In this document: positions 29,125 through 54,350 of the stretch, in pieces
Layout: every line of letters starts with the position of its first letter
Numbering within the stretch: position 1 is the stretch's first letter
Source of the DNA: Diadema setosum
Lineage: Eukaryota > Echinodermata > Echinoidea > Diadematoida > Diadematidae
Length of the DNA: 64,000 nt
Assembly (NCBI RefSeq): GCF_964275005.1
Contig: NC_092705.1
Location: forward strand, 11,719,912-11,783,911
Direction: 5' to 3'
The notes under the pieces: model-generated
The model's input: the letters and a program-made list of their open reading frames with translations, nothing else
What the model was told of the DNA's origin: nothing
Databases searched by the model: none
Position numbers and translations under genes: made by a program

Positions 29125-30170
29125 TAGTCCATGGGCCAAGAGCCGAAAAATGGGTTGTTGGTACCACCCGAGGTGGCAAAACCTTTTTGGTGTCATTTTG
29201 TTTGTCCGACATAGATACGCTTATCAAGCTATGATAGCATTTCCAAATGAGTAGCTTAGTCATAATAAATGAATTTTTAACCAATTTGGTCTCGTTTTTA
29301 TATCCCTATACTTCTGAATCGAAACTAACCGCTATACAAATACGAGCACTGCTATGGCACGCCAGAAGGGAATCAAATAATTATGTTCGACACCAACTAA
29401 AAAACCATTTCATCAATTTAAATTTCATTCCACAAAAATATGTTCGATAAAATATATATTTCATAAAATATATATTCAAACAAAATATATATTTGACAAG
29501 AAAATATGAAGGTTTGACCGAAATATATTCGACAAAATATATATTTGACAAAAATATATATGTTTCACCAAAAATATATTTCACAAAAATATATTTGATC
29601 AAAAATATATTTGACACAAACTATGTTTGACCCAAAATATATTTGACAAAAAATATATTTGACCAAAAATCATATTTGACCAAAATATATTCGACAAAAA
29701 ATATATATATTTCACCAAAAATATATTAGACCCAAAATATATTTGACATGGCGTTCTATACTTACGACAAGAAATCATTCGATGAACAAAAAACCATTCG
29801 ATGAACAAAAAATCATTCCATGAAAATAAAAAGTCATTCGATGACAATACAGCGCAGCGCAAGCTTACACTGCACGTGTCGTTGCGTGTACACTGTGGTA
29901 TACACCATCAACTGCAAATTGCTTGCGCATGCACATCCGCGCGCGCTTGCTAGCCCGTATACCGTGCGGTGAGAGCTAGACGCTCGCGTGGTACGCGCGC
30001 TATTATACAAAGCATTTAGCGATTTCGATGTCTGTCTCTTCTGAAAGTGGGAGTAGGAACGATCTCGATGGCGTTATGCAAGAGATTCAGCTCCGCCATT
30101 GCCAGTGAGATGACGAGCGCGAGATCGATCGGGATCAGGTCGCCCGGTCGTGGACATACTTGGAGACTAA
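29125..30170 (+). repeat. Left arm of the giant inverted repeat
   Basis: In order: a unique outer part (ATGATAGCATTTCCAAATGA), an AT-rich minisatellite at about 29440-29750 built on AAAATATATTTGACA units, words of the form CATTCGATGAACAAAAAA, a CpG-rich stretch (29850-30010), then a GC-rich gene-like piece (30030-30165). Every block recurs in reverse complement and reverse order in 52497-54350. Confidence 0.8.
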
Positions 30171-30639
30171 GGGGGTGTTGCAAGAAACTTGCAATTAATT
30201 GCAAGTCCCAAAAATCTATTGCAAATCCTGAAATCCATTGCAAATTTGCAATCAATTGCAAGTTGCAATCAATCCTGTTGCAAGAAAGATGCAATTGATT
30301 GCAAATCGATTGCATCTCTGCAATCAATTGCTAATCAATTGCAACTTTGCAATAGATTCAGGGGTAGTTGCAAATTTTGCAATCGATTTGCAATAGATTA
30401 CAAATGTCATAATTGCGGCTGCTTATATAGATGCTGGGGGAAAAATCTCCAAATTTGATCATTTCATGTAAGAAAAAAGAAGAAAATATTCCGTATAAAT
30501 GACATTTTTATGTAATGTATGATTGTGTAAGATACTTTTTTTTTAACATACACAAAGTGTATAAGGGGTTACTCAGTATACTAGTTTATGAATCAGCATG
30601 TGGTCGGTCGGGCAGTCCGTTGCAAATCTTGCGTCGCGA

Positions 30640-31850
30640 ACTCCATCTACAGTTTTGAAGCAATTTTGATGAAACTTGGGTTACATGATGACATCGAAGT
30701 GAAGATGTGCAAGACGTTTTTTTGTCTTTATCGGAGAAAGCGTTGCCATGGTAACCACAATTTCCCAAAAACCTTGTGGGGTAAAGTACTGCCACAGTAT
30801 TTGAGTAATTCATTTCAAATTTTATGTGTATAATGATCTTTAGGTGTAGTTATGTAAGAAACACTTTGTGTTTGTACCCGACAAGGCGTTGCCATGGTAA
30901 CGGCATATTTTCTTGAAAATCTTGTGGAGTGAACTCCTTCCACAAATTTGAGGCACTTGAACTCAAATTTGGTGTACATAATGACATTGAGGTGTAGATG
31001 TGCAAGACATGTTTTTTGTGTTTGTCGGAGAAAGCGTTGCCATGGTAACCACAAATTTCCCAAAACGTTGTGGAGTGAACTACTTTCACAGTATTTAAGC
31101 AATTTGTTTCAAATTTGGTATGTATAATGATCTATAAGTGTAGTTATGCAGGACACACTTTGTGTTTGTACCTGACAGGGCGTTGCCATGGTAACGGCAA
31201 TTTTTTCTTTGAAAATCATATGGGGTGAAACTATTTCGTGTTTTAAGGCAAAGGAACTCAAATTTGGTGTACATGATGACATTGAGGTGTAGATGTGTAA
31301 GACATGTCTTTTGTGTTTGTCAGAGAAAGCGTTGCCATGGTAACCACAATTTTCCAAAAACCTTGTGAACTACTTTCATAGTATTTAAGCAATTCGTTTC
31401 AAATTTGGTATGTATAATGATCTATAGGTGCAATTATGCAAGACACACTTAATTGTGTTTGTACCCGACAAGGCGTTGCCATGGTAACCGCATGTTTTCT
31501 TGAAAATCTTAAGATTTGAACTTCTTTCACTATTTTGAAGCAACTGAACTCAAATTTGGTGTCCATAATGACATTGAGATGTAGATATGCAAGACATGTT
31601 TTTGTGTGTCTGTCGGGGAAAGCGTTGCCATGGTAACTACCCAAAACATTGCTGAACAAACTATTAGTTTATTTATTTCAAATTCAGTATGTAGGGCGTG
31701 TAATGATCCCAAGGTGTAGTTATGCAAGACACTCTTTGTGTTTGTATGTGACGTGTTGCCATGGTTACTGCATATTTTCTTCAAATCTTTTTCAGTGAAC
31801 TACTTCCACAATTGTGAAGTACCTGTAGTCAAATTCACCAGGTACTCACG
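30640..31850. repeat. Tandem array of about 147-bp units, each with an RFX X-box palindrome
   Basis: GTTGCCATGGTAAC occurs at 30742, 30888, 31036, 31182, 31331, 31475 and 31624, with a one-base variant at 31755. Spacing is 144-149 bases (131 for the last). Two unit types alternate (AGAAAGC before the motif with CCACAA after it; CCGACAAGGC before with CGGCA after it), so the higher-order unit is about 295 bases, four copies. The motif is the classical X-box bound by RFX factors. Binding is inferred. Confidence 0.9.
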
Positions 31851-34800
31851 AGGTACTACACATATGTATACACACACACAGACACACACACACACAAACA
31901 CACATATCAAGGTCAGTGCAAATTTGTGATGGACACATTTAACAAGAGTATAGTTGAAATTCTGTTGTCATGGAAACAGTGCATTTTGACCCTAAACTCA
32001 AGTTTAAAAATGCAGATTTAGATTCACCTGCAGTTTTCAGGAAATTCAGAAGAAATTTTGGCACATGTCAGGATGGTACTTTAAAGGTGCACTTCAAGTA
32101 TTTATTAAAGCAGCTGTAAGCACTAGAATGACATTTTTTTTTTAATGACGTAAAGTATGAATATGGTGCATTACATGATATACACCATACCACACTAAAA
32201 TTAACCTACTGTATATGCTCAATATTCTGCAAGGTATATATCTTCATGAATTTCCCAAGACAGCTGCTACATGTATCCATGAATTTGAAGACACACAAAA
32301 ACTATCAACTCTGACACTGACATTAGGGTGCATCTGCAAACATATATTTCTACATTCAGTACTTTGTACCCCACAATCATGAATTGAACTACTTGCACAA
32401 TTTGTCTCAGTCTAGATAAATACTTGTTAAATATATGGCGCGTACAGTATTGCAAATTAAGCTTGCTCCTCATCTACCCCTCCCCCCCCCCATTTGCCCC
32501 ATATCAGATGATGCTGGGCAATTGATGACAAGACATGATGGAGACAAGAGACACACTGTCTCTCTGAACAAGACAGCATGCACTTCCACAGATATGTAGG
32601 ACCCCTACATTGCACCTCTTTTCTTGTTGCTATCATATTGAAAGAAATGTTCATATTATGAATGATAGTACAGAGAAATGTGCAAAAGAAAAGCGTACTA
32701 CAAGTATGAAAAGGCAGTTAATGAGAATGCACACATTGCTGAGTACAGAAGAGCCAATTACACGTGTACTTAGTATACACTCCTCATTATGAAACACTAG
32801 TTACACCTACAAAATGAGAAGGGGTGAGTAAATCAAAGTCTTACATATTATTATGATATATGTAACATTAAACTAATGGAATAATCACTAGGTTCAATAA
32901 TTCATTACTGCTGATTGTTTGTTTCTTGTATGTTGCTCAATACATAGCTCCCTATTCACTGTGTGATTGACTCCATTAAAACAGTGAACAAAGAGTAATG
33001 TTTTCAATAATCCCTTGCTTGCAATTTTTCTATTTGTTTTTATGTTTTTTTTAATCAATAATCAGATTCATTTATACTTAAAACTGATAAATTAAATGAA
33101 CAGTCTCTGTAACATGCTTAATTGCAAACTGGTTGACAGTCTGCTGGAAACCCTTCAGTCAACTACCTGTAGCTATCCTCATAAATAGGATTACTTCACA
33201 TGCTCTCTTTCAAGGACATGTAGGCCTATCGCTAGATGTGTCAAAGCCTCCACATTGAAATCAGTATTCTATACCTTATGTCTTCTCTGCAGTTCAGCAC
33301 GACTGAACACATACATATGTAGTGTATAACATGAACATCTTCATGATAACATCATGCACTCACATCTGAATCACACCAAGTTTTTCTTCCCATTGCATAA
33401 ACCCTATCTATCCCAGATCATACCATCAACTGAGCTCAAAATTAACCCACATCTATGGCTGAATACTCATGTGTGTGTTCCCCACTGTCATGCACACATG
33501 CATATCTTTTAAGCATGCATGGTCATAGAGGTACTAATTCAGTACTGAATATCAAGACAACCACGCATAAAGTTAGCTTATCTACATGTAACTTATCTGC
33601 ATTTGTATACTTGTGCTGTGATCTACTCATACAAACATGTAACAAACAAACAAGGTAACCAAATGTTACAGATACTTCTGACATGCAGAACTGTTAATTT
33701 TTTTGCCCAAAATGTATGCAAATGCCCCAGAAATGTGTTCAATTATGCTACAATATCACAATGTCAATTGGGAAACAACATATTAACCAAAAAAGATTCA
33801 CCATTGTGTTCACTGTATACATGTAACTTTGTACAACTGATTAGTAATGTAATCTGCAAATTGGCCCACAGCAGTATCTACTGATCTTTTGTGCTAGTGT
33901 GAAACAGACGCAGCTTGTTGGAAAATATGGTTTACTACATATCTCCTAACTACCTTCTAGCCTTCTAGTGGGAACTATCCCAGGACCCATGAATGCAATA
34001 CAAATAAGTGGTTCAATTGCTGAGAAATCAAATTCAGTGCCATCTTGCCACAGCACAGGTTCATCTGCCCCCAGATGGTGCTACACAACTGTAAACAAGA
34101 TCAAGATCATCATAATTTCAACCAGTACTTATTAAAGAACTTTTTTTACCACCAAGAAACATGAAATGTCTCACAATATACCTTGGCAGTTTTGACTTCG
34201 ATGATGTCCTTTAATACAACTGTTTGTTATTTTGAATGTTCCTTATTCTAAAGGTTTGATAGCCTGAAATGGAATGTGGCTGAGACTTAAAGCCTTCACA
34301 GTAACAAACCATATTTTGTGGTTTGAATAACAAAGCAAGGACCAGTGAACTTGGATGCATGTGATGCAGCCGAGATTATTACTACCAATGCACTTGTTGC
34401 AGCTCTGAAACACTGCTTGCTTCGTTTGTCCCTTGTTTTCTAAGAGTGATGACCTCAGCCTGATGAAAAGTGTTTAAAAAATCACTGCCTTGTTTTGTTC
34501 ACACTTTTCCTCATTGTTGACAGCGAGCTGCTCATCCTTTGCAGTGTATACCGTCTCTTGACATCAAGTTTGGCCTGTCTGCCCTCAGCTGCCATTCCCC
34601 TTGATTCACAGAAGTTATACCTATACATGATACAAGAAATATTGAAGAAATAAGAAATGGGAAATAAAAATGGAAACATTGCACTCACAAAGTCATTTTG
34701 TGGACATCCAAAAGGCGTTTTGTGTAAAGGTATGATGGTGCCAACATTTTAATTTGAAAATGAGGGAAATTTCAAACAATCAGTAATATACTGAAGAATT

Positions 34801-35463
34801 CGTATTACATGCAACTTCATGCGCCAAAATAATACAATGTACCTGAGTCATGAAGGCCTGAATACTACTGTCAGGATATGTAGAGCATTTTCAGTTTTCA
34901 GGGGGCTTGAAAAAGAGATTTGAATGTCTAAACTCTTTATTAAACATAATATAAGCCATTGCTGTACAAAACATTCCTTTCATTATGGGTAACTTTGTGT
35001 TATGTAAATTTCAATGCATCATTTTTGCTTATAATTTTGTATGAACTGCTGCAAAGTCTTCTTTACTCATTACTATGCCATGCTGTACATTTTCTTGTTC
35101 AGTAGGATGAAGTCATTGTACAAGTATCCTCAAATGAGACATCACATCAGAATTTATCCTAAAACAATAATGACAGATTCCAACAAATCAATATATTCAC
35201 ATTTCAAGCTGAGAGGTTCTACACATTTCATTCTCTCTCTTAACTGGAAATTATCGGACAATGTACAATGTTCACTTACTGTCTGTGTGCACTGGCTGGA
35301 ATTCTCATGCTGGTGTGAGTCTCGGTCTTGAAGAAACATGGTTTTTCTCCTCTTTTTCTTCCTTTCCCTGCTGATAGAACAGATAGAATTGTCTCATCTT
35401 GCAGAAGTACAAAAGAGCAATGAGAATTTGCAAAATTACAACCAAACAGTGTAGGAACAAAAT
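31850..35463. other. No recognised gene inside the nested element
   Basis: A CA-rich microsatellite lies near 31868-31905 and a C run near 32482-32490. Open frames are short, AT-rich and unsupported by splice sites. One stretch on the minus strand near 34500-34610 is somewhat coding-like but has no identifiable family. Confidence 0.3.
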
Positions 35464-36236
35464 GGGCAATTCCGCAGTTAGGTGGACATGACATGGATAA
35501 AAGAAATGTGCCTCTTTATCTTACCCTTTAATCTAGGTATCAACTAATGCCATGGATGTTCACCAATCATTAGGGTCTTTCAAATTCAGTAGATTTTATT
35601 TTTCGTATTCATTGATTTTGTGAGATCTAAAACCATCATTTAAAATGTACATGTGGGACTGGGGACGCTAAAATTCACTTAAATGCAAATTACAGTGGGT
35701 TCCTTTGAAATTTTTCCTCAAAGTTTTGCTAAAGGGTAAAAGATGAATACATTTAAATACTCCAGAAGTCATGTGACATTTTGTCAATTACAAAAGGGTG
35801 AAATGACCTGCGGAATTACTCCGGACAAATGTAACGTTACTAACCGTAACGTTACTAACCATGCTTTTGGGTTCTAGCTAAAAATTTAGTGGTCGAACTG
35901 CTAAGAAAATTTGCATGAACATTTGTCATGATGCAATAATTGAAATTAATGCATCACTTTGTTTGAAGTAACTTGAATTTTTGCACACTTTTTGTTACAA
36001 GACATTGATTTTTTTGTCATGTCCTTTTTTCGTAACGTTACTAACCAGCCCTTTAAGTTGCTATAGCAATTCTAATATTTCTTGGATTGTGTTCATTCTT
36101 TTCTGTATCATAAACCTGGGAAGGATGAACATGTTTTTGACATAATTTTGACTTGAAGTGAATAAATGGTAATTTAGTGGTAAAAACAAATATCTAAATT
36201 TGTTCAAATGTAACGTTACTAACCGCGGAATTGCCC
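35464..36236. mobile_element. MITE with GGGCAATTCCGC ends and TAACGTTA palindromes
   Basis: The left GGGCAATTCCGCAGTTAG pairs with the right CTAACCGCGGAATTGCCC. AAAT flanks both sides. GTAACGTTACTAACC occurs four times (two near 35830-35860, one near 36033, one at the right end). It is non-coding. Confidence 0.8.
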
Positions 36237-36350
36237 AAATGGACATTGATGTTTAGAAGCAGGCACTTTTTTCTTGATATTACAATAATGTTGGAACACT
36301 CTTTGAACTGCTTTCATATCCTCCCCTCTGTAACAAATTAACCCTCTATA

Positions 36351-36517
36351 CAGTCATTCACCTTGCATATTAAAGTCAAATAATCACCAAAGTCTACAGT
36401 CTTTTCACATCCTCTTCTCTTTATATTCTATTAATTTTAATCTTCATAAGTCAAAATTTCTTGAGGCAGAATCTATTTCTTTAGTCCAAATCAAATCGAC
36501 TTAGGCACAGTTGACTG
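36351..36517. mobile_element. Tigger-like MITE, CAGTC family, diverged copy
   Basis: It starts TA-CAGTCATTCACCTTGC and ends CAGTTGACTG. The interior matches 51591-51774 closely (GTCAAATAATCACC, TCCTCTTCTCTTTATA, TCTATTAATTTTAATC). Confidence 0.75.
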
Positions 36518-37689
36518 TTGACTGCCCATCAATCCATTACCCCCACTCATATTCATATGCAGACATGTACAATATTTTTAGTGCTGTACCGTTATACAAT
36601 GTACATTGCAAATCACACATCCATTAGGCTCTCATGTGTCCTGCCTATTGCAAGCACTCTCAACTATGTTTCCTCATCTCCCAAATCCGGAGGTCACTGT
36701 GACATGGTGCTTGGGTAGGCCTATGGGGTTACATACAACTACACTATAGGGTGGCACACACCTTGTAAGTAGTAGAGTACGGTACTATGCAAATTTTGGT
36801 ATCTAATTGGTAAGTGTCCATAAATACCATTTGTTTAAATGCATTCTAACAAGGCCTATTTGTTCTTTCCACAAACAAAAAGAGCATAAAGAATTGTTGT
36901 ACTCATAGTTATGACTCCATCAAGTGAATCACTTGAATTCCAGGCCTGGGTAGCTTTCATAAGTGTACCCCTTCAACCACTGGCACTTGTTTTCAACAAA
37001 AGCACTGACACATGTAAATATTTCTGCTTGGATATCCTACAGTCAGTTTGCTCATCTTATCCGTACGCTTCTTGTTTGAAATTTCAGCCTTGGTGATTAT
37101 AGACCTATATTTACACACTGTATTACAAAACTTAAAGTTTTACTGGCACTGTTTGCAATGGTTTGATACACTACAGTACAGTACTCTCATTGCAACTCTG
37201 ATTACTTGTAGGTACTTGCCATATAGAAATGGTTCAATTTCTCTTCCCCCCCCCCCCAAACAGTAGCCCAACCAGATGCGGTGCCAAGTACAGCGACTGG
37301 GGCCCTGGGCTGTGTATAGTTACCCAAACAGATGCACTTGGCCCTTGTTCGTTTTAAATCCTAGCTTTTTATTGATCCAGCTAGTCAACACTAAATTGCA
37401 AGATTTCAATTGATCCATCCAAATTCCAGAACAGAACAACCTACAAAAGCAAGGTCTATTCCACCCAAAGAGGTTCTCCAACCTCTTTGATTCCACCTCC
37501 CTGCTCAAAGAAGGTTTTAGACTAACCCCGGGGCGCTGTAGGCCCACACCAATATCAATAACGACATGTCTGTGTAGGGGTCGCTGATACGGTTGATTAG
37601 TTCAAACCGTTGGACTAAAATAGTGAAATCGTGGAGCACGTACCCTTGGGCCAACTCTTAACTTTCTTTAAGACCTGCAAAAGTAGAAC

Positions 37690-38070
37690 TTCTACTAGGC
37701 CTAGAACCTCTAGGCCCTACCTAGATGTAAACCCCTAGCTAGGTCTAGAAACTAGCCCAAATTACAAATAGGCCTACAGACTATTTTATATACTAATAAA
37801 GGCCTAACACAGGCCTAGACCACAGAGTCTAATCGAGTGATTAGGCCTAGGCCTATCAAAAATAAATTTACACATCAATTAAAAAATTCAGCAAGCTTTC
37901 GCGTCACATGGACAGTATCACTGCAAAATAACTAGCCCACATGTACAGGAGGGGAATGAGGCCAAGGGGGTAGGCCTAGGCTATGTAAAATCTAGATGGT
38001 TCTAGACTAGAGTATAGACTGTAGGCTACGTACAAGTACATTGTGTAAGGCGTAGCGTAGGCCTAGCACC
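37690..38070. repeat. Cluster of TAGGCCTA / CTAG words
   Basis: AGGCCTA and its variants recur many times (for example GATTAGGCCTAGGCCTATC), with CTAGA and CTAGC words. There is no coding frame. Origin unknown. Confidence 0.5.
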
Positions 38071-38839
38071 TATTCATCGCCATAGCACTCACCAGCACTC
38101 TGGTCTCTACCGATAGCTCCTAATCCTGCTTGAAAGTAGCGGATTTGGATAATGAATCGATAATGAATAGCGTCTAGAGTACTTTCAGAAAGTCTAGTTG
38201 ACATTGACTTTTTTTTTTTAAGCTGGCCTATAGACATAAGAGCCCTGCCTCTGGCAGCAGAAAAAAAGAAAAGAAAAGAAAAGGAGCTTGCCAATGCAAG
38301 AAAAAATGCTAACACAAAAAGCTATGTGTGGGACTATAATTGATGTACTATGTGCCCAATGAGTGGTCGAGACGGCCGCAACTCTGTCAGTTATAGGAAA
38401 CACATTTTCCCATTTTTCAAGAAAATTCTTATAAGAAGTAAGTCTAAGGAACTAGCTCTTTTAAATACAAGACACAATGAGTAAATAATGGGATCAAAAT
38501 CGACAATTTTTGCAACTTACTCTGTTTCGAATCCACAACGATCGCACAGCAAACCTCAACCACAGGAGAGACACAACACATTGAGCTATATGGAGTATCT
38601 CATGCATGCAAAATGCATTGAAAAATGGACAAATTGGCTAGGCTTGTCTTGCCAGTCGCTTTTATGAATACAAAATACAGCAAGGGAGCTTGCAATTAAT
38701 TGCATCTTGCAATTAATTGCAAGCTCCTTTCTTGCAACAGCAACTTGCGATTGATTGCAAGTTGCAATAGATCTATCTATTGCAAAGTTGCAATAGATAT
38801 TTGCAATTAATCGCAACTCGACTTTCTTGCAACACCCCC

Positions 38840-39110
38840 TAAGTTAGCAGGAGCAGAGCAACATCAGCGGTAACCGCAGCAGCGACCCCAACACGTTACT
38901 GGTACAGCGCCCGGCCGCCCCGGGCGGGGGTTACATCAGCGGCAGCGTTTACGAATAGCCCGACCAGACGGAGGTACGCTGTGCGAATATCCTACGTACA
39001 GCGACTGGTATGGGCTGTGTATAGTTACGGCAGCGCCTGCCATGACGATCCGGTCTCCAACCCAAACATCAAGCAGGCCAAGGGCAAGACCACAGCCTGA
39101 GGCTGTAAAT
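38840..39110 (+). other. GC-rich gene-like fragment, continuation of the left arm
   Basis: The first 95 bases match 52497-52580 in reverse complement and read in one frame as SNISGNRSSDPNTLLVQRP and on to GYISGSVYE plus a stop near 38957. A second open stretch in another frame ends DPVSNPNIKQAKGKTTA and a stop near 39100. The base composition is unlike the surroundings. I do not recognise either protein. Captured host gene pieces are the simplest reading. Confidence 0.35.
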
Positions 39111-39239
39111 AGGCTCAGGCTCAACCACCGGCACCGCACCGGCACTACGGATACGGGCTCAGCCTCAGCAACCCCAGGTTGGTAAACTGTCGTAGACCGA
39201 TGAGATCTGTATCTGTATGGTTTAGTCAGCAAAATGTCC

Positions 39240-40311
39240 AGGAAGACATATCCACGCTAACTTGTAGAGGAGCACTACGTGTGGACAGAGCGCGACCATT
39301 GAAATTTGTCTGAGATCTGTCTCTTCTCGTTGCCGTCGGTCATGGGCTTCTTAGAGACAGATTCCGGCGGTAGTAAAATGGTAATGCAGTATTGGCAGTA
39401 AGCCAATATCGTATCTAAGAGGCAAGAAGATATACCTCAAATTTCACTCTACCAAATTCCACCAAAATTTCAGGGATTCCTTAGTATCTCATTTCCAGTC
39501 ACTCACATAAATTTGAATTAAATGAGACATGGGGAAGCATTGAATTCAACGTTGACTTAGTTGTGGTTGTTTCTGCTCGCGCTCACAGCTTACGCTGTCT
39601 ATATGTTAACGTTACACATTACGGTGGCTTTGAAATAAGGGGGACCATCATCATAGACATAAAAAACAAGGTTATATGCCTTCTAACCTGGAGTAATGTG
39701 TAACTCATCATGAAATATAGATTGCTAGTTGTTCTCTCCCCCCCCCCCCATGAGACTAACAATTAGAGTTAATTACTAGCTGTCACACAGGTCAGTATCA
39801 TTACGACAGCGCGTTGCTGACTGCAGTTATTCACGCGATCACGATTACTCTCCACAGGCATTCATTGTCGGCAGGTAGTTCGCCGTACAGGAGGAAAAGA
39901 ATATGAAGTTTCCGTGACAACCTGAGGACATACGTTGATGCAGCAGGAAGAGATGATGGATGTGTGAGGTAAGACATCGTGTCCTCATTGCTAGATTCCC
40001 ACTGGTGTGATATTTTGAATGGAAAGTGCTTCAGTAATATTATACTAATCACAGAGTGAGGAAAATTGACTTTATTTCTTTTTTTTTTTCTTCTATGAAT
40101 GTGATGTTTCTTATGGAAAGTTATGAGATTGAATAAGCTGAATGAACAATTCTCAGAGGATATAGATATGTGATATAAACAGCCATCCCTATCTTTCAAC
40201 AGAGCAGAATTCTGGATGCCTAATCCAGTCAAGTACTAACTTAGTCAAGTACTTGTACTGTTTGAAAATTGTTGTTCAAATTTTACCTCTTTATTGTTAT
40301 TTATTTGTGTG

Positions 40312-40346
<35 letters not shown>

Positions 40347-40882
40347 TGAAACTAAAGTTTCAAAGATGAAGTTTAGGAAGTCAAGACTTTATGCCCCATT
40401 GTGAATGTTTTTTACTTTTGTGATAAACTTGGAATATAGTGATTTGGTGTGTTTTTTCAAAGCTAGTAATATTAGGAATAATAAAGTAGTGATGGTAGTG
40501 ATCATAATAAAATTTTCATGATGAATTATCACTGTTGTTATTACTTGAATAATGAAAATGATGTTTCTAGTCATGATTATCATCATCATCATCATCATCA
40601 CTTATCATTGCTTTCCCCCTTGCAGAATTACAATATATATGCCTCTAAATATATTGTAGGCAAACTGTAATAGCAGTACCTAGAGAAACCTGAAACAAGT
40701 ACCGGTACATCAATATGGTACTAATTGGAAACATTTCAGTTCATCTTTTCAACATCAAGTTTATTATATGTTGATAAAATTATGTTCCAAAAGGTATACA
40801 GTATTTACCCAGTAATGTCATGCATTGTATTTCTGTTGTTTCCACTAATACACAATGGCAGCTACAGTGTGAGAATGTTTGA
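39240..40882. other. Core region without a recognised gene; microsatellites
   Basis: A C run lies near 39739-39749, a (TG)n run at 40303-40347 and an ATC run near 40577-40603. A GTAAGA donor-like site follows 39968, but the preceding sequence has no long frame. Confidence 0.3.
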
Positions 40883-41032: not shown

Positions 41033-41084
41033 ATTATTAAGTTCAGAAGAAAATCAAGCAAACAATTCCATACTTCTTCAAATT

Positions 41085-42207: not shown

Positions 42208-43549
42208 TACTGTAAAGCAAGAAATATTTGCAGTGTGAAATTTTCTTGAATCACAGCTGACAGCCTTTTTTTTTCTTTTTTTTTATGCCTCCGCCACGAA
42301 GTGGTGCCGGAGGCATTATGTTTTCGGGTTGTCCGTCCGTCCGTCCATCCGTCCGTAATGAATTTTGTGGACAGCGTAACTAAAAAACGTTTTGAGGTAT
42401 CCTAATGAAACTTGGCATGTATGTGTATTAGGGGGTGAAGTTGTGCCTATCAACTTTTGGGTGCACATGCTCAAGATCAAAGGTCAAAAGGTCAAGGTCA
42501 AATACGTAAAATTTCACTATTTCCACCATATCTATGCAATGCCTGAAGATATTTTCTTAAAACTTGGTGTATACATGTATTACCCAATTAAGATTCTCTG
42601 GTGGAAGTTTGGAGTCATGAGGTCAAAGGTCAAAGGTCAAAAGGTCAAGTAACAGTATTTTTTTGTCCGTAACTTGGAAATTGTTCATGGTATCTTCATG
42701 GAACATAGCATATATACATGTACTGACTGACAATGATTATCTAGAGAATTTAGGGTTCATGGGGTCAAAGGTCAGGGGCCAAAGAAAAGGGCAACACTTC
42801 AACATTTTACTATTTCCCTCATATTTATGCAATGCCAGCGGGATTATTATTATTTTTTTTTTTTTACACTTGGTGTATGCATGTATAACCTGATAGAGAT
42901 TCTCTGGAAACTTTTTCTTTTCTTTTTTTTTTTTGCCTTAAAGGTCAAAAGGTCAAAGATCAAGGGAAAGTGCTGAACTAACTTTTTCCTCCATATCTCA
43001 GAAGTGGCTCAAGGTATCTTGAAACTTTCTACATATTTATGCATGTTCTGCCTGACAGTGATTATCCTATGAATTTTACGGTCAAAGGCCAGATGAAAAT
43101 GGTAACAATGTACTTTTCAATACAGAAATTGCACTTTTTCTCCATACCTTGAAAAGTACTCAATGCATAAACTTATGAATGGGCAAAGTCAAGTTAAAGT
43201 CCTTAAATCCCCAAATCCCCAAATGCATGCTCTCCTATTCATCCAATTAAACTTAGGTCAAGGAAGGTGAATATTCAACACATTTGTGACAAACTTGTTA
43301 TTTTAATATTTTGCCAATTGTGTGAAAATGTAATCACACATTGTCCACATGTACAGTAGACCTATTAGGAGAATCATGCATTATGGCGGAGGCATACCAG
43401 TCGCCTTAGCGACATTTCTAGTTCAGCATGCCACTTGAATTCAATGCATACAGTGCATACAGTGTAAACAAGAACTTTTGCATGTACATGTATTTTGATT
43501 TTGTGACTCTTTGATCTCACAAAATTTGCAAAATTGGAATACAGTGTAC
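42208..43549. mobile_element. MITE split by a Helitron-like insertion
   Basis: The left part (TACTGTAAAG... to ACAGCTGACAGCC) and the right part (TCAGCATGCCACTTGAATTC... to ATACAGTGTA) resemble 25355-25572. The T-rich middle contains the 1.1-kb element at 42274-43422. Confidence 0.5.
42274..43422 (+). mobile_element. Non-autonomous Helitron-like element (ATGCCTCCGCC...CTAGT)
   Basis: It begins TC in a T run, then ATGCCTCCGCCACGAAGTGG and GTCCGTCCGTCC. The 3' end has GGCGGAGGCAT, then a hairpin GTCGC-CTTA-GCGAC and CTAGT, the expected Helitron 3' signature. The ends insert into the T run of a MITE. The interior carries several direct repeats of AGGTCA. No Rep/helicase protein is encoded. Confidence 0.6.
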
Positions 43550-44197
43550 ACACGAAAATGTTTGGCTTAAAATGGTTCACTATTTTTGCTTCAATTGAGT
43601 TCTGCATGCCAAAAACGAAAGATTGTATACAGTACTTCATTCCGTTCAAAATAATTGTATGGTGGAATAATTATTCAAATATAGGCATTAAAGACTCTAA
43701 ACAGTGTTTTCACGGAAGAATTAAAATGGGTTGATGCTTATTCTCCAACAAACGTTATTCATTCATCCATTTCATTCATTCATCTCATTTATTTTCACTT
43801 TCATTATTGGTTGACAAAATCTGTATTAAAAACACAAACAAACAAACAAAAATGCACTGTGTCAAATATGATAATGGAGAAATCATGAGAAGCACAACGT
43901 AGTGTTATTGAAAATGACCCCTTAATAACAAATATGATGTAAATATGTGTAATCATTTATAATCATTTGTAATTTGATTGAAACAAACATGAATACAAAT
44001 TGTGATAAGATTATGTATTGATTTCTACTTTGCAAGAAATCAGTTGAAATTTGAATTATTGATGAAAACTTATCCCGTAATGACCAATTTGCATGGACAC
44101 ATTAATGGGTTAAATGCAAAAGTATGAAGTGAAGGATCTATGAAGATAGATTGCAACATATGAGTTTGTTTGTTTGTTTGTTTCTCTGTGTTGGTAG

Positions 44198-45854
44198 GAG
44201 CATAGCTGCCTTGGACCCTGATAGCCCTATCCATCATCATGAGGTTTCCCAACCCACTCAATGCCATGCAGAGCCTTTTGATCAACGTCATCTTGGAAGG
44301 ACCACCTGCTCAAGGGTGAGCCACAATGTGCACACATCAGCAGGTCTGAGAGTATTCTGAAGGGGGAGGGCAATTATGCCGGCAGTGCAGTCATTATTCT
44401 GATTCAGTCTAATCAGTCCACTCTGCATAAAGATTCACAATCAATCAATCAGTCAATCAATCAATCAATTAATCAATCAATCAATCAAATTTCTTCAAGC
44501 AAATATCTTTGGACCTCATTAAAGCTTTGGTTTCAAAATTTTTCATTTTACCTTTTCATCAGCTAAAGCAGCATCTTTAGTGAGTACCATTATAATTCTT
44601 CAGTCATGGGGAAAATAATTTTGTAAAAGTAAAAATCAATACCTCTCAAATCAGCAGTGTTTCGAAGTCTCATTTGTATGCCACTCTCCTTCTCTTTGTG
44701 ACCCTTCTTATTGGAAAGTCTGGACGCCAACTATTTCTACTCTACACATTAATGTTGTTTCCAGAAATCCTTTCTGTCTATATGGCTACAGATTTTATTG
44801 TTAATTTGGAAGAAAGGACAAATATATGTTCATTCTTTAAAAAAAAAGAAAGAAAGAGTGTGTATACATGTATTATCAAAGATGGATAATGAACAAATAC
44901 TGACATGAAAAAAAAAATTGTGCATTCTGTAGTTCACATTACTGTATGATAATGTTTCATTCTCTCCCCACTCCTCTGTCCAGTCTCGGAGTGGAGCCAT
45001 TGGACAAGGATGTAATAAGGAAGCCTCCTCGTTAGGTTCGTGACCCCATGATCACCAGACCTCTTCTTATTTATGTAGTCATGTCTGCCCTCATCATCGT
45101 CGTGGGAATCCTCTGGGTCTTCTGGAGAGAGGTTAGTGCTCCCTTTATTGTCCATGACTGTACACACATTTCTATTAATATTGGTCAAGTTCTTCCTTTA
45201 CATAATTGTAATATTATGCCCTTGCTACATTGTGCCGAGTGATAACATTAGTGCATTTAGCAAGCTATCTTCTGTCAGATGCTTTGTCATGCGGATTGTA
45301 ATATTAGATAATGATGCATGTATTGATTTGATTAGATTTATCCATTGTCTTTATAGATACTTGGCTGTGTATATTAGTACATGCAGTAGCAGCATTCATC
45401 TTTAAATACAGTATGCAATGAGTTGTTTTGCTCCATGAAGCCTTTTCAGAGTATAAGGACAAGCATGATACTATCTTGAGCTGGGATTTATCAACTTGTG
45501 CCTGTCAAGCAGTCCAGATGGCACTGTAATAATGACTGCTCCTCTCGATTAGATGCAATCCTGCCTCAGCCTTCTCTGTGTCAGACAAAGTCATAAAAAG
45601 ACGTGTAGCATACATGTATGAATACAAGACCATACATACTGTCTGATGCACCACTGGTGATGAAATTACTCAATTGTGTACAGACTTTGTCAGTACGTTT
45701 CAACATAAAGTAATGAGTGATAATTTTGATAAGTAATGTTGTCAAACATGCAGATCATGCCTTGGTTAGCTGTCCTTCAAGATGTAACTGATGTTGGTTA
45801 TCTACTTCCCTCCACTACAGGAAATATTCCAGATGGAAGCACTGTCAGTATAAG
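44198..45854 (+). pseudogene. ATP2C1-like: Decayed secretory-pathway Ca2+-ATPase (SPCA) exons
   Basis: Exon 44198-44315 reads SIAAL, then after one extra base (near 44214) [11 protein letters not shown] and [20 protein letters not shown]. This matches SPCA membrane segment 6 (human [20 protein letters not shown]). The ion-site Asn is kept but the Asp is Glu. Exon 44984-45131 reads LGVEPLDKDVIRKPPR, a TAG at 45033-45035, then DPMITRPLLIYVVMSALIIV and GILWVFWRE (segment 7). A probable third exon, 45821-45854, gives DGSTVSIR only in a shifted frame. Splice sites are intact, so this is a fragment of an intron-bearing gene, not a retrocopy. SPCAs pump Ca2+ and Mn2+ into the Golgi. Neither the upstream catalytic exons nor the last exons are visible. 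Assembly error is possible but would need several faults. Confidence 0.8.
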
Positions 45855-46367
45855 GTGAGTGTGGCATGAACTTCCCTCCCCTTCTCCCATCCCACTGGTG
45901 TATTCGCACACTTTTGCCATGTTATTGTTGAAACCAAGGGCCGTCATTTAAATATCACAGGCTAATTGTTAATTGTACACATTGTAAAATTATTGCCCAT
46001 TGTACGCTAATGTGTACAAATGTGTCCTTTAAAAGCAAAAAAATTGAATGAGTTAAACATGTGTAAAACATCTGTCATTATGATTGTACTTCTTCACAAC
46101 TAAACCTCAGCGCTTTTGTAGGATTTCTTGTATTCTGCTCTGCTTCATGTTTTGAGAAAATTAGAGGTTTCTTATACTTTTTTGTCACTTTATAAGATAT
46201 TTGTAGGAAAATAATGCTATATATTTGGTTTCATAGGCTGCTGACTGGATGGTATAATTGACTAATTTAATGTCTAATGCACTACAATGACTTCCATGTC
46301 TGTTTAATTAGAGGGGCAATCAGGCACAGTTTTACTCTTTTCCATAGAACTCCTTTTAATGACTTAC
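45855..46367. other. No recognised feature
   Basis: AT-rich sequence between the last Ca2+-ATPase-like exon and the minus-strand gene candidate. A continuation of the latter beyond its donor at 46362-46367 would have to lie here or further left; I could not find it. Confidence 0.3.
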
Positions 46368-46930
46368 TCTCGATTGACTGATTTTTGTTGCTCATTTCAG
46401 ATATCTGTTTCTTGGTGATGCTGACTTCCTCTGTCTTAGTTGTGCCGGAGATTAAAAGTAGGGTCATCGGCGGTTGAGTCGGCGTCACATCATCAAGCAA
46501 CTGTGTGATTTTGAACTTGTTTGACCTGACGATGGTCTCATTGATACTTGGCAGGAATCTTATGTGGTTTTGCAGTATTTCTGACGCATTCAATCTGTCA
46601 AAATCATCATACATGTACTGGTGCATGGACATTTGTTTGGTTGGGTATACTCAGTGAAAGTCATTAATAAGTGAAGACTGTGTACAATTGTACCTGCTAC
46701 CTGTATTTTAGGTGTAAAACTCATATTTAACGAAACCCCATTCGATAGAGAGGGTCTGTTGCATCCAAAAATTTGTTATATAACCAGTTTAAAAGCCGTC
46801 ACGACATACCGGTCAGAAATTCCTGGGCTAAATCACCCAGCGCCACTGACAAATCGATTCTCTGAATAATACTAAATAAAATCTTCGAACCGGACTTATC
46901 AGTCGCCAACACGCTGTACTGCACGGCCAT
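46368..46930 (-). CDS. Candidate unidentified gene, first two exons
   Basis: Exon 1 (46930-46810) starts at an ATG in good context (GAAAATGG) and reads MAVQYSVLATDKSGSKILFS on to ALGDLAQEFLT before a GTATGT donor. Exon 2 (46649-46368) is in phase after an AG with a TTAATGAC branch-like site. It reads VYPTKQMSMHQYMYDDFDRL, then IRFLPSINETIV, KITQLLDDVTPTQPP and SEMSNKNQSIE before a GTAAGT donor. The 134 residues are soluble and mixed in charge, with no membrane segment or motif that I recognise. A further exon is expected to the left but was not found. Codon content and splice signals look genuine. It lies inside the core of the giant element, opposite in strand to the Ca2+-ATPase exons. A transposon-encoded protein is possible. 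Confidence 0.42.
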
Positions 46931-49900
46931 TTTCCGACACCAGGTGTTGTTGTTGTTGTTGTTGTTGTTGTTTTTGATAATTCGCAAACCCGTATCGTGC
47001 CCTCTCTCAGTAAAAACGATGTATTTCCTTTTTTTTGTGTGTGAAAAGTTGAGGGTCGGGGGGTTTTCTAGGGTCGGGCGGGTTACGCCAATACAATGAT
47101 TTTTTTTTTTTTTTTGCCTTATGGAAGTGTTCCTGTTTGCACAAGGTTTTATATTTAAGTGTTTCTCATGGTTCTTATAATGGGCATTTACTTTAAACAA
47201 TTATGACTGATAATGGTTTTTATTGATGATGAAGGTTGCCAGTATTGAGTAATGCATTTATATTTAGTTCATTTCTTGAATCTGTAGCATTTGATTTCAT
47301 GTATTTGAAATTTTGCAATTGGTACATGAATGCCAACTCTTCATCTGCACTATTGCAGTCTTTCAGCAGTTACAGATTTGTATGATGATAAGATGACAAG
47401 AACATTTTAATGTGTAATGCTGCTTAAAGGGACAAAACAAATCATGCCCCTATGAAATTGAATTCAGGTTAGTTCTCTCCCTCCCCTTTTCCAGGTAAAC
47501 ATACAGATTTCATAGTTGTGATGACATTCTCTGTCAGAATCGTCTTTGATATATTTGCAAGTTATATAGCACTGGTTACTCAGAGGAATACCAATACCAA
47601 TGTCAACCCATCACTCTCAGTCAAGCCATTTTTTTTTTTTTTTTTTGGTTGATAGCTGATGATGTTAGGGGAAGGCGAAAGATTGATTATATGGCTCATT
47701 GCCAATCATTTCAATGTCTAATCCACTCAATGTGTTTATGTCACATCCTCAGTCATCATGACATCATAATAATGTTTGTATTATTTTTATGACAATATTA
47801 CATCCCTATCACATCGCCAGCTCATTATCAACATGACATCCTCACATCATCATCATTATTAGATTATCATGACAGAATCCTGATAGCTGAATTACATTCA
47901 TGAATGTGAACAGGAACCACAAGGAGAACAGTGCAAAGATCACTAAAGTGGCTACCCTCTATGAATAAGACTAAATCATCATCATCATCGTCATTGTCAT
48001 CAAGACATAATTCTTATACCTTTATAACATCATAGCATCATTCTCACATTATTGTGATATCATCACCAAACACTGTGACATCATCATGACACTAATGTGA
48101 CATCACATCATTTTCCTATCATTCTTCATATTGTCCCTAAACCGTGACATCATCCTGCCATTAACCTTCCATCGCTTTCCTTTTACCCACTCCAATGAAT
48201 AGCACTTTTAATGGGATAGAGATTTTATAGTGTCTATGCAAGGGGTAAACCCATTTTATCCTCTTTATTATGAGCAGGTCTAGCTCTGTAAGAATATTGG
48301 ATATCACCTTGCTCAGTACAAAAATACTGTCTGTGGTGTTTCCTCAGTATTCATGACTCTTTAAATTGCCAGAGGTTACAATGTAAATATCTCGAAATAC
48401 TGCACCATTTAACTTTGAATGAAATTTTATGATAGATTAATTTGATCACTGTGGTCCAATTGAAATGTACTTACATTGTCAGATTACATGATATGAGCTG
48501 AAGGACCCCTGACTGTAAACTATAAACTGCCATATGTAGATTGTTGAAAACAGTAAGATTTACAGTGGAAAGGCAGGATTTACATCCTGGTGTTGGGAAG
48601 AAAAATCCACATTCAGTTTTTCACATTGGCTGTGATATTGCTGGAAGAGCATAACCAGAATTGATAGTGTTTAGCTCTCAGTCTTCTAAAGTTCTAGTGG
48701 GTTTTCCTTAGTTCAAAAATGTGATTTAGTCCACATTGTGAACAGAGTTCCTTCATAGGTGTGTGAGTTTTTATTGTGTGTCTGTCTGTTTGTCAGTGTT
48801 GTTGAGTGTATATGAATCTTTCTTTTGGATTCAGAAATTATTCGTAAATGTACAAATTATCGTCTTATCAAGGAGGTACAAGTTTTGTACTAGTACCTCC
48901 TTGGTCTTATAAAGTTTTTATTTTTCAATTACTTAGCAATGTACAATCCATACAGGAGTGCCTCTCTTGATCATGTTTTCCAGCTTATCTGAGATTCTAA
49001 TATTAAAGACTTCCTACAGCAAGTGTAATTGTGTGGTATCTCTAGACTGATGAATATCTGCATAGTTCTATTTGTCTCATAGTTAATTTTAAAGGGACGT
49101 TGACTTCAATCCTGTTTATTTAAGTGATCAATGTGAAATAGTTTTGTTTATTGACAAAGTTGAACAAAGTTGCTTACAATATACACTGGAACTGGAAATA
49201 CAAATGAAGTCAGTGACACGATGGGTGCATCTGTTTTTCACTCCACATCTTTATTAAAGTTGTACATACAGAATAATATACTAGTATGTGGTAACAGTTC
49301 AGCATTGATGTTCATAAGGCCTTGTGTGTAGTCTTGACTTTCAGACCCACCTTATCTTTGACACAGTTGTAGTCTGTATCATGTTAACTCTGATTGTTTG
49401 TAGGTTGTTTTCACAGTGAAGTACACAGCAGGATCCTGTATAAACTATTGATGTGCAGTAGTCATACTCAGAGAATGGGACTTCATTGGATGATACAATA
49501 CTTTACATTGATGATCTTTGTCCTGTAATGGCGGCTGACAGTAGACTGGTATGAGCCAAGTTTTCATGTTAATAAGAATTTTATTATGTGTTCAGTGCCT
49601 TCAAAGATCAGTGTACATGTACCACTTGCGAGTAAGAATCTTTATGTCTGGAGGTGCTTCAAGTCTGGCTTAACAGAGTTTCCTCTTAACCAATTGAGAA
49701 CCAGTCGGAGTATACTAGGGCAGGTGTCTATGGGAAATGCTTGTTGTCGCAAAATCAGTCAGTCCTCATTGGGTTAAGGCTAACTTGTGTCGTAAGCAAA
49801 TTTCTGCCCCCTCTGATTGAAACAGGTTTACAGTATACAGCATAATTTCAGAGCAGAAGCATTGTACTTGCCATTCAAAATTAGCATTCATTAATTATTG

Positions 49901-51588
49901 TGAGACTGAAATGAAATGAATTTGAAAAATATAGAAAAAAAAAAGATATGTGACAAGGCATGTACATTTGTGCCAATTGCCTCATTTAGATTGTAGAAGA
50001 TTGGAATTTGATTTCATGAATTTGAAAGATTGGAATTTGTGACACCTCGACTGTGGCATTAAGCTGGCAATGCCAGAGAAGCTTCAACCACATGACATGT
50101 AAGAAATATGATTGAAGCTTGGAAGTTAAGGGATCTGTTTTTGATAGAAAAGAAAGATCCCTTCTGAAATGAATCAAACCTGCATTAATTACTTGCGACT
50201 TTTCAAAGTGTAATATTTCAAATATTGACTGGATGTGCCATGCCTACGAGCCCCCTACATGTTACATTGTAAGTGGATCAGTGTTGTAATTGTTGAAGTG
50301 CTTCAAGTCTTTTTTGAAAAGGCACTATATACTGTAATTATTGGTTATCATATGTTATTATGTTTTATCTGTGAGTGTCTGATGAAGAAAATGTATGTTT
50401 CAATATCTCTCATGTTTCAACAGGAGAAATATGGGGGTTATTTCAGTGCAAATTGTAATCTGCGATGCAACTTTTACAACATAACGGTAAGCATACAAAT
50501 TTTACCTGGTAATACATGTACTCAGTAATATTCAGATCTTACTCAGTAACATGAAATAACAATGCCATAATGTTAGAAATACTGCCTGCTGGCTCATCTG
50601 TGAAATAAGTTCAGCCTCTGAAATCTTGTTACTTCTGGCCATAAGTGGGCGATTCATGACAGGAAACAATTTATCCCCCAAAACTGTGTGGCCTACAGGT
50701 GACATCTCTTGGGTCTGTTGTGAATGGAAAATATGGACTGATAACAAAGGGACTGTACCCAAACTACTGTGAAAGCAGTGTGGTTCAGAACTCTTTAGTA
50801 GGTTGTGTGGAATACATACAACAGCAGTGCGAGCTGTCTTGTTGAATAATGGCAAGCGAATTTGAATATACAGTGTTATTTACATAAACTTCGTATTTCT
50901 TTTATGTCCAGAATTGTTAATGATTGCAATTAAATTTCCATCTTGTGATTGGTATGGCACGAATATCTTTCCTTGTTAACTTGGCATACAAAGTGAAAGG
51001 AGTGATTGAATGCGTGAGTGGATGAATGATACACAAGATAAATTTATGACTGAAAAAGTGAGATAGTTACTACGTACATCATATAGCTGTGTACACAACT
51101 GAATGACGCCATCCCACAAACTGTAAGTTTTCTATATTGTAAGTTGTGCTACTGGAAACAACCAGTTCATTGTGAATGGGCAAATTAGTTTACTGCTGCT
51201 CAGAAGAGTACAGTACAGATGTATATGCTCCAGGTGAATGACTGCAAAATTAGAGGTTTTGGTGTTTTTGTTTTTTTCATACAAGATGCAGTGCAACATA
51301 CTACTAGTACTCGAGGAATAATCAAACAGTGTTGAAAATATGGAGACCTATAAGTGAACAAACCATAAGAGCAATCAAATGAAAACACACACACACACAC
51401 CCCCTCACATACAAAAAAAAAAAAACTTGGCACATAATAGCATATATGTGTTCCTTTTCAATCCATGACTATGATTGTGATGAAATTAGTGTATCATCCT
51501 TGCAAGTTTTATAACATGGATTCTATATTTGTATCCAGTTTTATTCATTCTTTGATAACTGCTGCAAAAGTTCCAACACAAATGAAAA
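46931..51588. other. Core region without recognised genes
   Basis: A (TTG)n run lies at 46945-46971, just upstream of the minus-strand gene candidate, and T runs near 47101 and 47630. At about 47710-48140 there is a diffuse block rich in ATCATCATC and CATGACATCAT words (a degenerate trinucleotide minisatellite). No exon was identified in the rest. Confidence 0.35.
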
Positions 51589-51590
51589 TA

Positions 51591-51774
51591 CAGTCAACCT
51601 TGCTTAAGCTGGCCTCGCATAAGTCAAATAATCACCCAAGTCAAAGGTCCTTTTCAAGTCCTCTTCTCTTTATACCGGTACATTCTATTAATTTTAATCC
51701 CTCATTAGTTGAATTTTCTCTGATCGAAGCTATTTCTTCAGTCCAAATAGATTCAACATGGGCAAGGTTGACTG
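51591..51774. mobile_element. Tigger-like MITE, CAGTCAACCTTGC ends, TA duplication
   Basis: CAGTCAACCTTGC at the left and GCAAGGTTGACTG at the right are perfect inverted repeats with TA on both sides. The 184-bp unit is the best copy of the family also at 23037 and 36351. A long fortuitous plus-strand frame runs through it. Confidence 0.9.
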
Positions 51775-52496
51775 TAGTTCAATTCCTTCAACATATTCTA
51801 CAAACATTTATTGACATTTTGATACTACATATGGAATATGTTTGCCGTAGTTCAATGGCACCTCTACTAACCACCACACAACACTTCTCCCATCTATTCA
51901 GACATGAAGTTTTTAATGACAATCTCCTAGAGTGCAAATATGGACTGCTCTTCGGGGAATTGTTGATATCATTACCACGAGGGATCTCGGCTCTGTGCTA
52001 TGACCCAAGGAACCTTACAGGGGCACCGATAGCAACAACTGCCTTGAAGAAAAGCAGTTCATATCTGTACATACATGTATTATATAATGAAGAAAATTGT
52101 ATATGAAAATTTAGTAGGTTGATGGCAATAGCTCTTGGATAGCCAATTCACATATCTGCGCTGCCATTTCACGTGCATTGCAATCGTATTGGATATTGGT
52201 CACCTCTCTCACTATTGAAGCCAAGTGCTTACCCTACATGTGCATATGAATGTGCTGCTACAAATCAAGAGGGCAGTTTAGTATAATATGGGTCAGTTTG
52301 GGTACTGTGGGAACTACAGGTAATTGCTGACTGTATGCCCCAATTCTTAACCAATCAGACTTGAAGATTCATCAAATGAAGTATCTGGTTGTAGTGATGA
52401 AGTATGTATCTGGTTGTATAGTGATGAGGTATATAGCTGGTTGTATAGTGATGATGTGATGAAATACTAGTACTATATGTATTTGTATTGTGATGA

Positions 52497-54350
52497 TGTA
52501 ACCCCGGCGCGGGGCGCTGTAACCAGTAACGTGTTGGGGTCGCTGCTGCATGCGTTACCGCTGATGTTGCTCTGCCACGGCCACGACCTGATCCCGATCT
52601 CGCGCTCGCCAACTGGCAATGGCGGAGATTAAGCTGTGCTGAATCTTTTGCATAACGCCATGGCGGGATCATTCCTACTCCCACTTTCAGAACAGTGGAA
52701 GCCCATGGCCCATGCGTGAAGTCTTGAGCTAGATCGACATCGAAATCGCGAAAGCTACCGCGCTCAAAACCCACCACTCGATCGAGCATCCCACCGCGGC
52801 GGCCAGCGGCTGCGCCGCGCCGATGATGGCCTAGCTAGCTGTAGTGTGCTATGCATGGTACACGTGCAGTGTATGCATGCGTACGTGTTGCGCTGCATGT
52901 AGACAAGTCGCATGGGCCAGCTTGGTACACAGCGAATATTGCGCACTCGTTTTGTCGAACGTATTTTGTCATGAAACGTATTTCAGCTCATGAAATGTAT
53001 TTTCATGGAATGGTTTTTCGTTCATCGAATGATTTTTTTTTCTCGAAAGTATGGAAAGCCATGTATGTAAAACACTTTTTGTCAAATATATTTTGGGTCT
53101 AATAGATTTTTGTTGAAATGAATATATTTTGTCGAATATATTTTCGTCAGATATTTTTGGTCAAATATATTTTGGGTCAAACATATTTTGTGTCAAATAT
53201 ATTTTTGGTGAAATATATATTTTGTCGAATACATTTTTGGTCAAATATATTTTTGGTCAAATATAAATTTGCTCAAATATATTTTGGTGAAATATATATA
53301 TATTTTTGTCAAATATATATTTTGGTCAAACCTATATATTTTTTTGTCAAATATATATTTAGTTTGAATATATTTTTGTCAAATACATATCTTATTGAAT
53401 ATATCTTTTATCAAATATATATTTTGTCGAATATATTTTTGTTGAATGAAATTTTACTTGATGAAATGGTTTTTTAGTTGGTGTCGAACATAAATATTTG
53501 ATTCCCCTCTGGCGCGCCATACACTGCCTTCTGTATGTCCACAGGTGTTCTGTTGTAAACGCGGTGCGATTAGTCTTCATTCAAGGCAGCGAAGGGAATA
53601 TCCAAAGGGTTATGATGTCCACAGCTGTCACGCGGTGCGCTTAGTCTTTATCTAGAACAATGTACCGTTATCATATCTAAAGTTCCTAATAAAAGGGATT
53701 ATCTATACTGTTTTTATACCACCCTCTCAACAAATACATCAGTTTTAAACAAAAATCACTCTGTTCATTTACAACATTATTAATTATAATGTATTGTAGT
53801 GTACCGGTACATTGTTTTTGCATAATCTTTCATTGTTGGATGGAAATAAAGCGACATTGGCGTGGTATTAGCGTTTTCAACCCAGCGTTTTCACCGGAAA
53901 ATGATAAATAATTGAAAAAGACGATAAAATTCACGAGAAATTGCTTTTTTGTTGCTGTTGTTTTTAGATAAAGGGATATACAATGTATCATAAGCTTTGG
54001 ATATTCCCTTCGCCGTCTTGAATATTAGACTAAGCGCTGTGGACATCATAACTCATGGATATTCCCTTCGCTGCCTTGAATAAAGACTAAGCGCACCTCG
54101 TTTACAACAGAACACCTGTGAACAAACAGAAGACAGTGCTCTTCTTTGTATAGCGGTTGGTCTCGATTCAGAAGTACAGGGATATAACAACGAAACCAAA
54201 TTGGTTTAAAATTCATTTACTATGACTAAGCTACTCATTTGGAAATGCTATCATAGCTTGATAAGCATATCTATGCCCGACAAACAAAATGACACCAAAA
54301 AGGTATTGCCACCTGAGATGGTACCAATATCTGGCCTGGCCCATGGACTA
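52497..54350 (-). repeat. Right arm of the giant inverted repeat
   Basis: It mirrors the left arm: GC-rich gene-like piece (52497-52790), CpG-rich stretch (52790-52950), ATTCGATGAAC-type words, AT-rich minisatellite (about 53080-53450), GGTTTTTTAGTTGGTGTCGA, then the outer unique part ending GGCCCATGGACTA. Unlike the left arm it lacks the 8.7-kb insertion and has one at 53522-54138. It therefore shows the uninterrupted order of the GC-rich piece. Confidence 0.8.
53522..54138. mobile_element. Foldback element nested in the right arm (CACTG...CAGTG)
   Basis: The left ACTGCCTTCTGTATGTCCAC and right inverted equivalent continue through GGTGTTCTGTTGTAAACG and GGCAGCGAAGGGAATATCC. The terminal block is partly duplicated inside each end. 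The left arm near 29340-29370 lacks the element and serves as an empty-site comparison. Confidence 0.75.

Follow-up and report, generated by a model that had tools for sequence, protein, structure and literature searches.

Animals harbor non-autonomous terminal inverted repeat (TIR) transposons that surround a copy of host DNA from an unlinked source, known as Pack-TIRs; the multicopy ones have target site duplications (TSDs) of their own. The portion of the published survey available to us counts 370 Pack-TIRs in 100 animal reference genomes and puts their median capture at 224 bp; four in the reference genomes are multicopy, in addition to Ssk-FB4 in flies, 323 of the 370 are hAT or Tc/mariner elements, and IS3EU does not appear in the main text (PMC8277862). 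Plant Pack-MULE and Pack-CACTA elements hold exonic and intronic host fragments between TIRs, as does Tgm-Express1, described in the part consulted as a 5.7-kb CACTA element with five unrelated gene fragments (PMC1947982). IS3EU elements, and mostly GingerRoot elements, have TA..TA termini and a 6-bp TSD; the accessible text of the source mentions no gene-capturing IS3EU member (PMC10045372), and our literature search, which covered titles and abstract openings, found no description of one. Here we examine a block of the genome of the sea urchin Diadema setosum in which a large transposon with such termini encloses a copy of a host locus. The block occupies positions 29125-54350 of the window, by which we mean the whole 64,000-nucleotide stretch analyzed (C22:11719912-11783911; contig NC_092705.1 of assembly GCF_964275005.1). 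Positions given without a contig refer to the window, and the genome searched comprised 912,680,840 bases on 102 contigs.

The block at 29125-54350 consists of three transposons nested one within another and is not one 25-kb transposon. A 1,051-bp non-autonomous element lies in a 166-bp satellite, with GAT as its TSD. A 15.5-kb non-autonomous TIR transposon, the middle element, lies in the 1,051-bp element (6-bp TSD CACTGC), and an 8,669-bp element with a TAA TSD lies in the left arm of the middle element. This three-level nest, with a multicopy Pack-TIR-like transposon carrying decayed host cargo at its middle level, is very probably the best explanation of the block as a whole. The components of the nest, from left to right, are:

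28842-29124 (+): 166-bp satellite array, left of the block; continues at 54351-55999
29122-29124 (no strand): GAT, 3-bp TSD of the 1.05-kb element, left
29125-29352 (+): left 228 bp of the 1,051-bp non-autonomous element, TIR TAGTCCATGGGCC
29347-29352 (no strand): CACTGC, 6-bp TSD of the middle element, left
29353-53521 (+): middle element, IS3EU/GingerRoot-like (provisional) non-autonomous transposon, 24,169 bp as it stands
29353-30170 (+): left arm of the middle element, outer part; continues at 38843
29434-29748 (+): 16-bp tandem array in the left arm, 19 copies, consensus AAAAATATATTTGACA
30168-30170 (no strand): TAA, 3-bp TSD of the third element, left
30171-38839 (+): third element, 8,669 bp, TIR GGGGGTGTTGCAAGAAA, PIF/Harbinger-like by its TAA TSD only
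30684-31637 (+): 146/294-bp minisatellite within the third element
38840-38842 (no strand): TAA, 3-bp TSD of the third element, right
38843-39692 (+): inner part of the left arm, or sequence of the middle element's own, ahead of the cargo
52394-53521 (-): right arm of the middle element
53076-53441 (+): 16-bp tandem array in the right arm, 22 copies
53522-53527 (no strand): CACTGC, 6-bp TSD of the middle element, right
53528-54350 (+): other 823 bp of the 1,051-bp element
54351-54353 (no strand): GAT, 3-bp TSD of the 1.05-kb element, right
54351-55999 (+): 166-bp satellite array, right of the block

The middle element begins with TATGGC and ends with GCCATA, both in the window and in the paired copies described here. 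Without the third insertion and one TAA its length is 15,497 bp, which falls within the mode of its family. A genome search with its first 88 bases (best 40 of 85 candidates scored) located at least 40 places, including the window; the match started at position 1 in 39 of the 40 and at position 5 in the other. The last 88 bases gave at least 41 matches, again including the window and all from position 1 (best 40 of 86 candidates scored). With up to three mismatches allowed, the terminal 22-mer had 50 forward and 52 reverse matches, against 0 and 0 for the reversed-pattern control. We paired 91 ends, namely 89 of the 100 listed 22-mer ends (leaving out 11 three-mismatch singletons) and one from each 88-base search, and obtained 43 inward-facing pairs and 5 ends without a partner. 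A cargo exon (41719-41810, see below) was found inside 41 of the 43 pairs, exactly one per pair. These 41 copies are spread over many contigs and span 14,241-63,445 bp, 30 of them measuring 14.2-17.1 kb. A perfect 6-bp TSD was present in all 17 copies checked, which were chosen because both ends were already at hand or fetched, and a 7-bp one in none of the 16 tested; the TSDs of several copies are distinct from one another, as in Pack-TIRs. Six copies were fetched and read as 10-kb pieces (L021-L038). They are 94-98.9% identical to the window element in the main BLAST pieces, each has indels of its own, and the insertion at 30171-38839 is absent at that place from all six. At C24:17859377-17890739 two middle elements stand end to end, 10 bases apart, as if a second copy had inserted in or beside the TSD of the first. 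In 9 of the 41 pairs the right-type end TATGGCGCGCCAGAGGGG is on both sides, which suggests a subfamily derived from arm conversion.

The first-pass annotation of this DNA, made from its letters alone, had proposed an element of no nameable superfamily. The TA..TA termini and 6-bp TSD of the middle element narrow this to an IS3EU/GingerRoot-like transposon (compare the accessible part of PMC10045372), although unlike the described members it has no transposase, measures 15.5 kb and carries host cargo. Because no transposase-bearing partner was found, the assignment is provisional. The window copy has no frame longer than 221 aa and the six fetched copies none longer than 231 aa (frames crossing a piece boundary could be cut); the sole Pfam match in six frames of 38839-53521, a scan that starts inward of the outer arm at 29353-30170, is a captured Cation_ATPase_C domain. 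Since no protein of its own was found, the middle element must move in trans, and a DDE transposase of IS3EU/GingerRoot type that acts on its TA..TA ends would be the likely agent; the 16-bp tandem arrays near both ends may be transposase-binding arrays. Long inverted arms with short tandem repeats are also a feature of the sea urchin TU foldback elements, but these have an 8-bp TSD, unlike the 6 bp of the middle element with its large host cargo.

A Polinton/Maverick that has decayed or been hollowed out is an unlikely identity for the middle element. Polinton termini are AG..TC, whereas those found here are TA..TA. The six-frame Pfam scan of 38839-53521 yielded Cation_ATPase_C only and no PolB, integrase, protease, ATPase or capsid gene, the six copies read in pieces have no frame above 231 aa, and the 12.7-kb interior is largely host DNA. 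A Polinton would account for the total length of 15-16 kb, the arms of up to about 1 kb and the 6-bp TSD, a length that the accessible part of PMC10045372 also gives for Polinton.

The host-gene-like exons that the first-pass annotation had noticed in the core are present, and lie in the middle element within two captured pieces:

39693-43810 (+): captured host piece B, matching C9:816329-814025 on the opposite strand (inverted) in separate blocks of 74-87%
41719-41810 (+): exon-like stretch of the host neighbor gene
44018-52393 (+): captured host piece A, collinear with C9:802341-811516 at 76-89%; C9:804120-805370 is missing
44198-44315 (+): captured SPCA-type Ca2+-ATPase exon, frame broken
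44984-45131 (+): captured SPCA-type Ca2+-ATPase exon with an in-frame stop; PF00689 match at about 44973-45212
45790-45854 (+): captured SPCA-type exon remnant, approximate limits

The core does not represent host DNA in situ; the cargo maps to one locus on another contig, C9. It makes up 12,701 bp of the middle element, and 9,527 bp of it align with C9, introns included; piece B includes sequence that is not in C9, for example 41115-41496. The source region, C9:802,341-816,329, takes in the final exons of an SPCA-type Ca2+-ATPase gene and part of a neighbor on the opposite strand. Four E1-E2_ATPase matches, two of them above the Pfam cut-off, are located upstream at C9:791,574-795,896, and Cation_ATPase (PF13246) and Cation_ATPase_C (PF00689) exceed the cut-off within C9 796-806 kb. 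The aligned exons are open in C9, for example in a VFWRE stretch, but in the element they are interrupted by a frame break or a stop. We take this and similar C9 stretches to be hallmarks of SPCA (ATP2C), an assumption that the Pfam ATPase domains support. No match to the arms of the middle element was found in C9:796000-821999. Since the C9 exons are open and the region lacks arms, C9 is the source and the element carries a dead copy. The peptide of exon 41719-41810, for which there was no PDB match, was located at 42 places in the genome, all 42 candidates having been scored: 41 are within end pairs and one, at C9:815246, is outside them. The source copy on C9 is unlinked and lies outside any end pair, as the sources of Pack-TIRs do. 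An older copy on contig C4, which in most of the stretch read is 85-90% identical to the element, was considered as the parental gene and rejected because it keeps the rearranged order of the element over 39723-44899, shares the frame break (the only lesion compared, the second exon being beyond the fetched stretch) and lies within an end pair.

The splice sites of the exon-like pieces and the occurrence of the neighbor-gene exon in 41 of 41 cargo-bearing pairs could be explained if the 15.5-kb unit were an autonomous element and these pieces its own multi-exon genes. This is very improbable, since the exons match a host locus, C9, in which introns are present and arms absent, the lesions are common to six of six copies and the sole Pfam domain is Cation_ATPase_C.

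The same six copies date the decay of the cargo. Frame break and stop are common to all six; the cargo was therefore dead before amplification. Within the cargo region, seven copies compared over 9.0-9.4 kb differ pairwise by substitutions at 0.3-1.2% of positions, whereas the aligned C9 blocks differ from the element by 11-26%. Thus the capture is old, decay came next and the spread is recent. Long ago the arms took in two stretches of a single host locus, which measure about 9.2 and 2.3 kb in host coordinates and comprise 3' exons and introns of the SPCA-type gene and an inverted piece of the opposite-strand neighbor gene. In the element the neighbor-gene piece is inverted and placed ahead of the ATPase tail. 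Because two patches of one locus are joined in changed order, we infer that the capture occurred by template switching during gap repair. After the cargo had decayed, the whole 15.5-kb unit recently reached about 41 sites, by a manner of copy gain that we only infer.

The first-pass annotation had read the entire block as a single 25.2-kb transposon with TAGTCCATGGGCC ends, and much of what it saw was borne out. The TAGTCCATGGGCC ends form exact 13-bp TIRs at 29125 and 54350, GAT flanks both sides of the block, and the satellite is continuous once the block is removed, the uninterrupted site CTCCTGATGTTGCTGCC being present 5 times in the window. The arms do match in consecutive blocks in an inverted self-alignment of the window (29158-29351 with 54327-54134, 92%; 29353-29828 with 53521-52998, 77%; 30036-30142 with 52695-52584, 78%), which also contains odd jumps (30166-30304 with 38844-38707 and 38853-38938 with 52575-52494). 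A single transposon is nonetheless practically without probability. When the genome was searched with 29100-29400 (best 40 of 1,592 candidates scored), all 40 listed matches outside the window broke off at query positions 250-253, corresponding to 29349-29352. In seven of seven fetched copies of the 1.05-kb element (L002-L008) the equivalent of 29352 joins the equivalent of 53528 without a break; five of the six copies with both ends found are 1,051 bp long and the sixth 1,052 bp, and the two window pieces likewise add up to 1,051 bp (228 + 823). Because the outer ends continue uninterrupted elsewhere and the window pieces give this sum, the inverted arms are split between two different elements, the inner left arm being further interrupted by the third insertion. 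The TSD of the outer element is 3 bp in all seven copies with both flanks seen, including the window (copy L003 is without one end). This outer element is non-autonomous and present in high copy number. At 41 loci the inner unit is bounded by ends of its own, and 17 of 17 copies checked also have their own TSDs. Elsewhere, copies of the outer ends run into a short interior of their own, a different inner sequence, which the annotation itself had named as telling against its proposal. Its large gene-capturing mobile element stands as far as multicopy mobility is concerned, but is the middle element only, with other termini and a 6-bp TSD. It is also vanishingly unlikely that segmental duplication of the C9 region, and not transposition, produced the 41 copies, for although their interior is host DNA, exact ends and 6-bp TSDs accompany 17 of 17 copies checked, the copies are on many contigs and C9:796000-821999 has no arm match.

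The third element of the nest starts with GGGGGTGTTGCAAGAAA and finishes with its complement. In seven of seven other family copies examined the equivalent of 30170 runs into 38843 with a single TAA; an old relative, L063, differs at this TAA site. The TSD of PIF/Harbinger transposons is a 3-bp TWA, to which the flanking TAA conforms. No Pfam domain was found in six frames of 30172-38838, and so no Harbinger transposase or Myb-like protein; the third element is at most a non-autonomous PIF/Harbinger member. A 2.4-kb interior piece (33000-35400) had at least 92 matches, one of them a near-identical copy on C5, in a search in which the best 40 of 138 candidates were scored. Thus the interior of the third element is multicopy as far as this piece is concerned. 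Some of the interior matches are neighbors on the same strand, 8.4-8.8 kb apart (C24:27848476/27857236, C6:22092580/22101001 and C5:44412596/44420999), and others form pairs on opposite strands (C24:27881194/27889739 and C31:157834/165468), as if whole units had been tandemly duplicated or inserted into each other. A 776-bp repeat with GGGCAATTCCGC ends occurs within the third element (35464-36237) and also interrupts the middle element in L027 (7698-8473). Minisatellite of one type is found in the third element (30587-31835) and in L064, a 4.45-kb relative with the termini of the middle element (1877-3068). There is a stray 68% match between C9:800298-800544 and 32206-32451, inside the third element.

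Several findings weigh against our account of the middle element. No more than about 9.5 kb of the 12.7-kb cargo can be aligned with C9, the remainder being later insertions or sequence without a match, and the inverted order of the cargo pieces could stem from a later inversion at C9. The termini and the TSD alone cannot tell IS3EU from GingerRoot. No transposase was present in any copy of the middle element that was read (by frames, and by Pfam on 38839-53521), nor was one present in relatives when these were judged by frame length, without Pfam: the largest frames were 110 aa in L063 (2,573 bp) and 107 aa in L064 (4,452 bp), which share the termini of the middle element, and 118 and 120 aa in L065 and L066, which are stretches at single termini that depart from the pattern at three bases. 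Moreover, the TSD of L064 is imperfect (5/6) and L063 has none. Genome matches to PF13683 and NF033516 were mostly long, retrotransposon-sized frames, and among the candidates scored (150 of 809 and 76 of 1,278, respectively) the nearest match was 22.9 kb from any of 28 unpaired or related ends.

About 1.8 kb inside its TATGGCAAGCCAAAGGGGAATA terminus, L066 has a 114-aa frame (1884-2228) that in our estimation resembles the splicing factor SF3B1 and is possibly another captured gene piece. Outside the block, the window contains an inverted repeat of about 580 bp (5510-6080 and 18718-19297, 95%). A direct repeat at 24079-24339 and 41251-41496 (82%) has, by eye, a tRNA-like promoter box, and we presume it to be a SINE.

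The middle element acts like a multicopy Pack-TIR with a capture far above the published animal median of 224 bp. With the Pack-TIRs in the available portion of PMC8277862 it has in common a non-autonomous TIR structure around copied host DNA, an unlinked source and TSDs proper to each copy; unlike them, it carries, between IS3EU-like ends and in 41 copies, two intron-containing pieces of a single locus that together span about 11.5 kb in host coordinates. As in the plant elements (PMC1947982, in the part consulted), exonic and intronic host fragments are enclosed by TIRs, but in contrast to Tgm-Express1 the middle element draws on one host locus, is larger and has a 6-bp TSD. The block at 29125-54350 is also a caution that nested insertions can pass for one giant element. 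With a known source locus and young copies, both the breakpoints of the capture and the order of events are open to direct testing. A 41-site family that duplicates two pieces of one neighborhood together with their introns would show DNA transposons to be large-scale gene duplicators in animals. We see an even chance that an IS3EU-type system mobilizes passengers of 15 kb or more in trans, and that one template-switch capture founded a giant gene-carrying lineage which outlived its dead cargo and reached about 41 sites. If this is true, IS3EU would provide animals with a means of duplicating genes and introns on a large scale.

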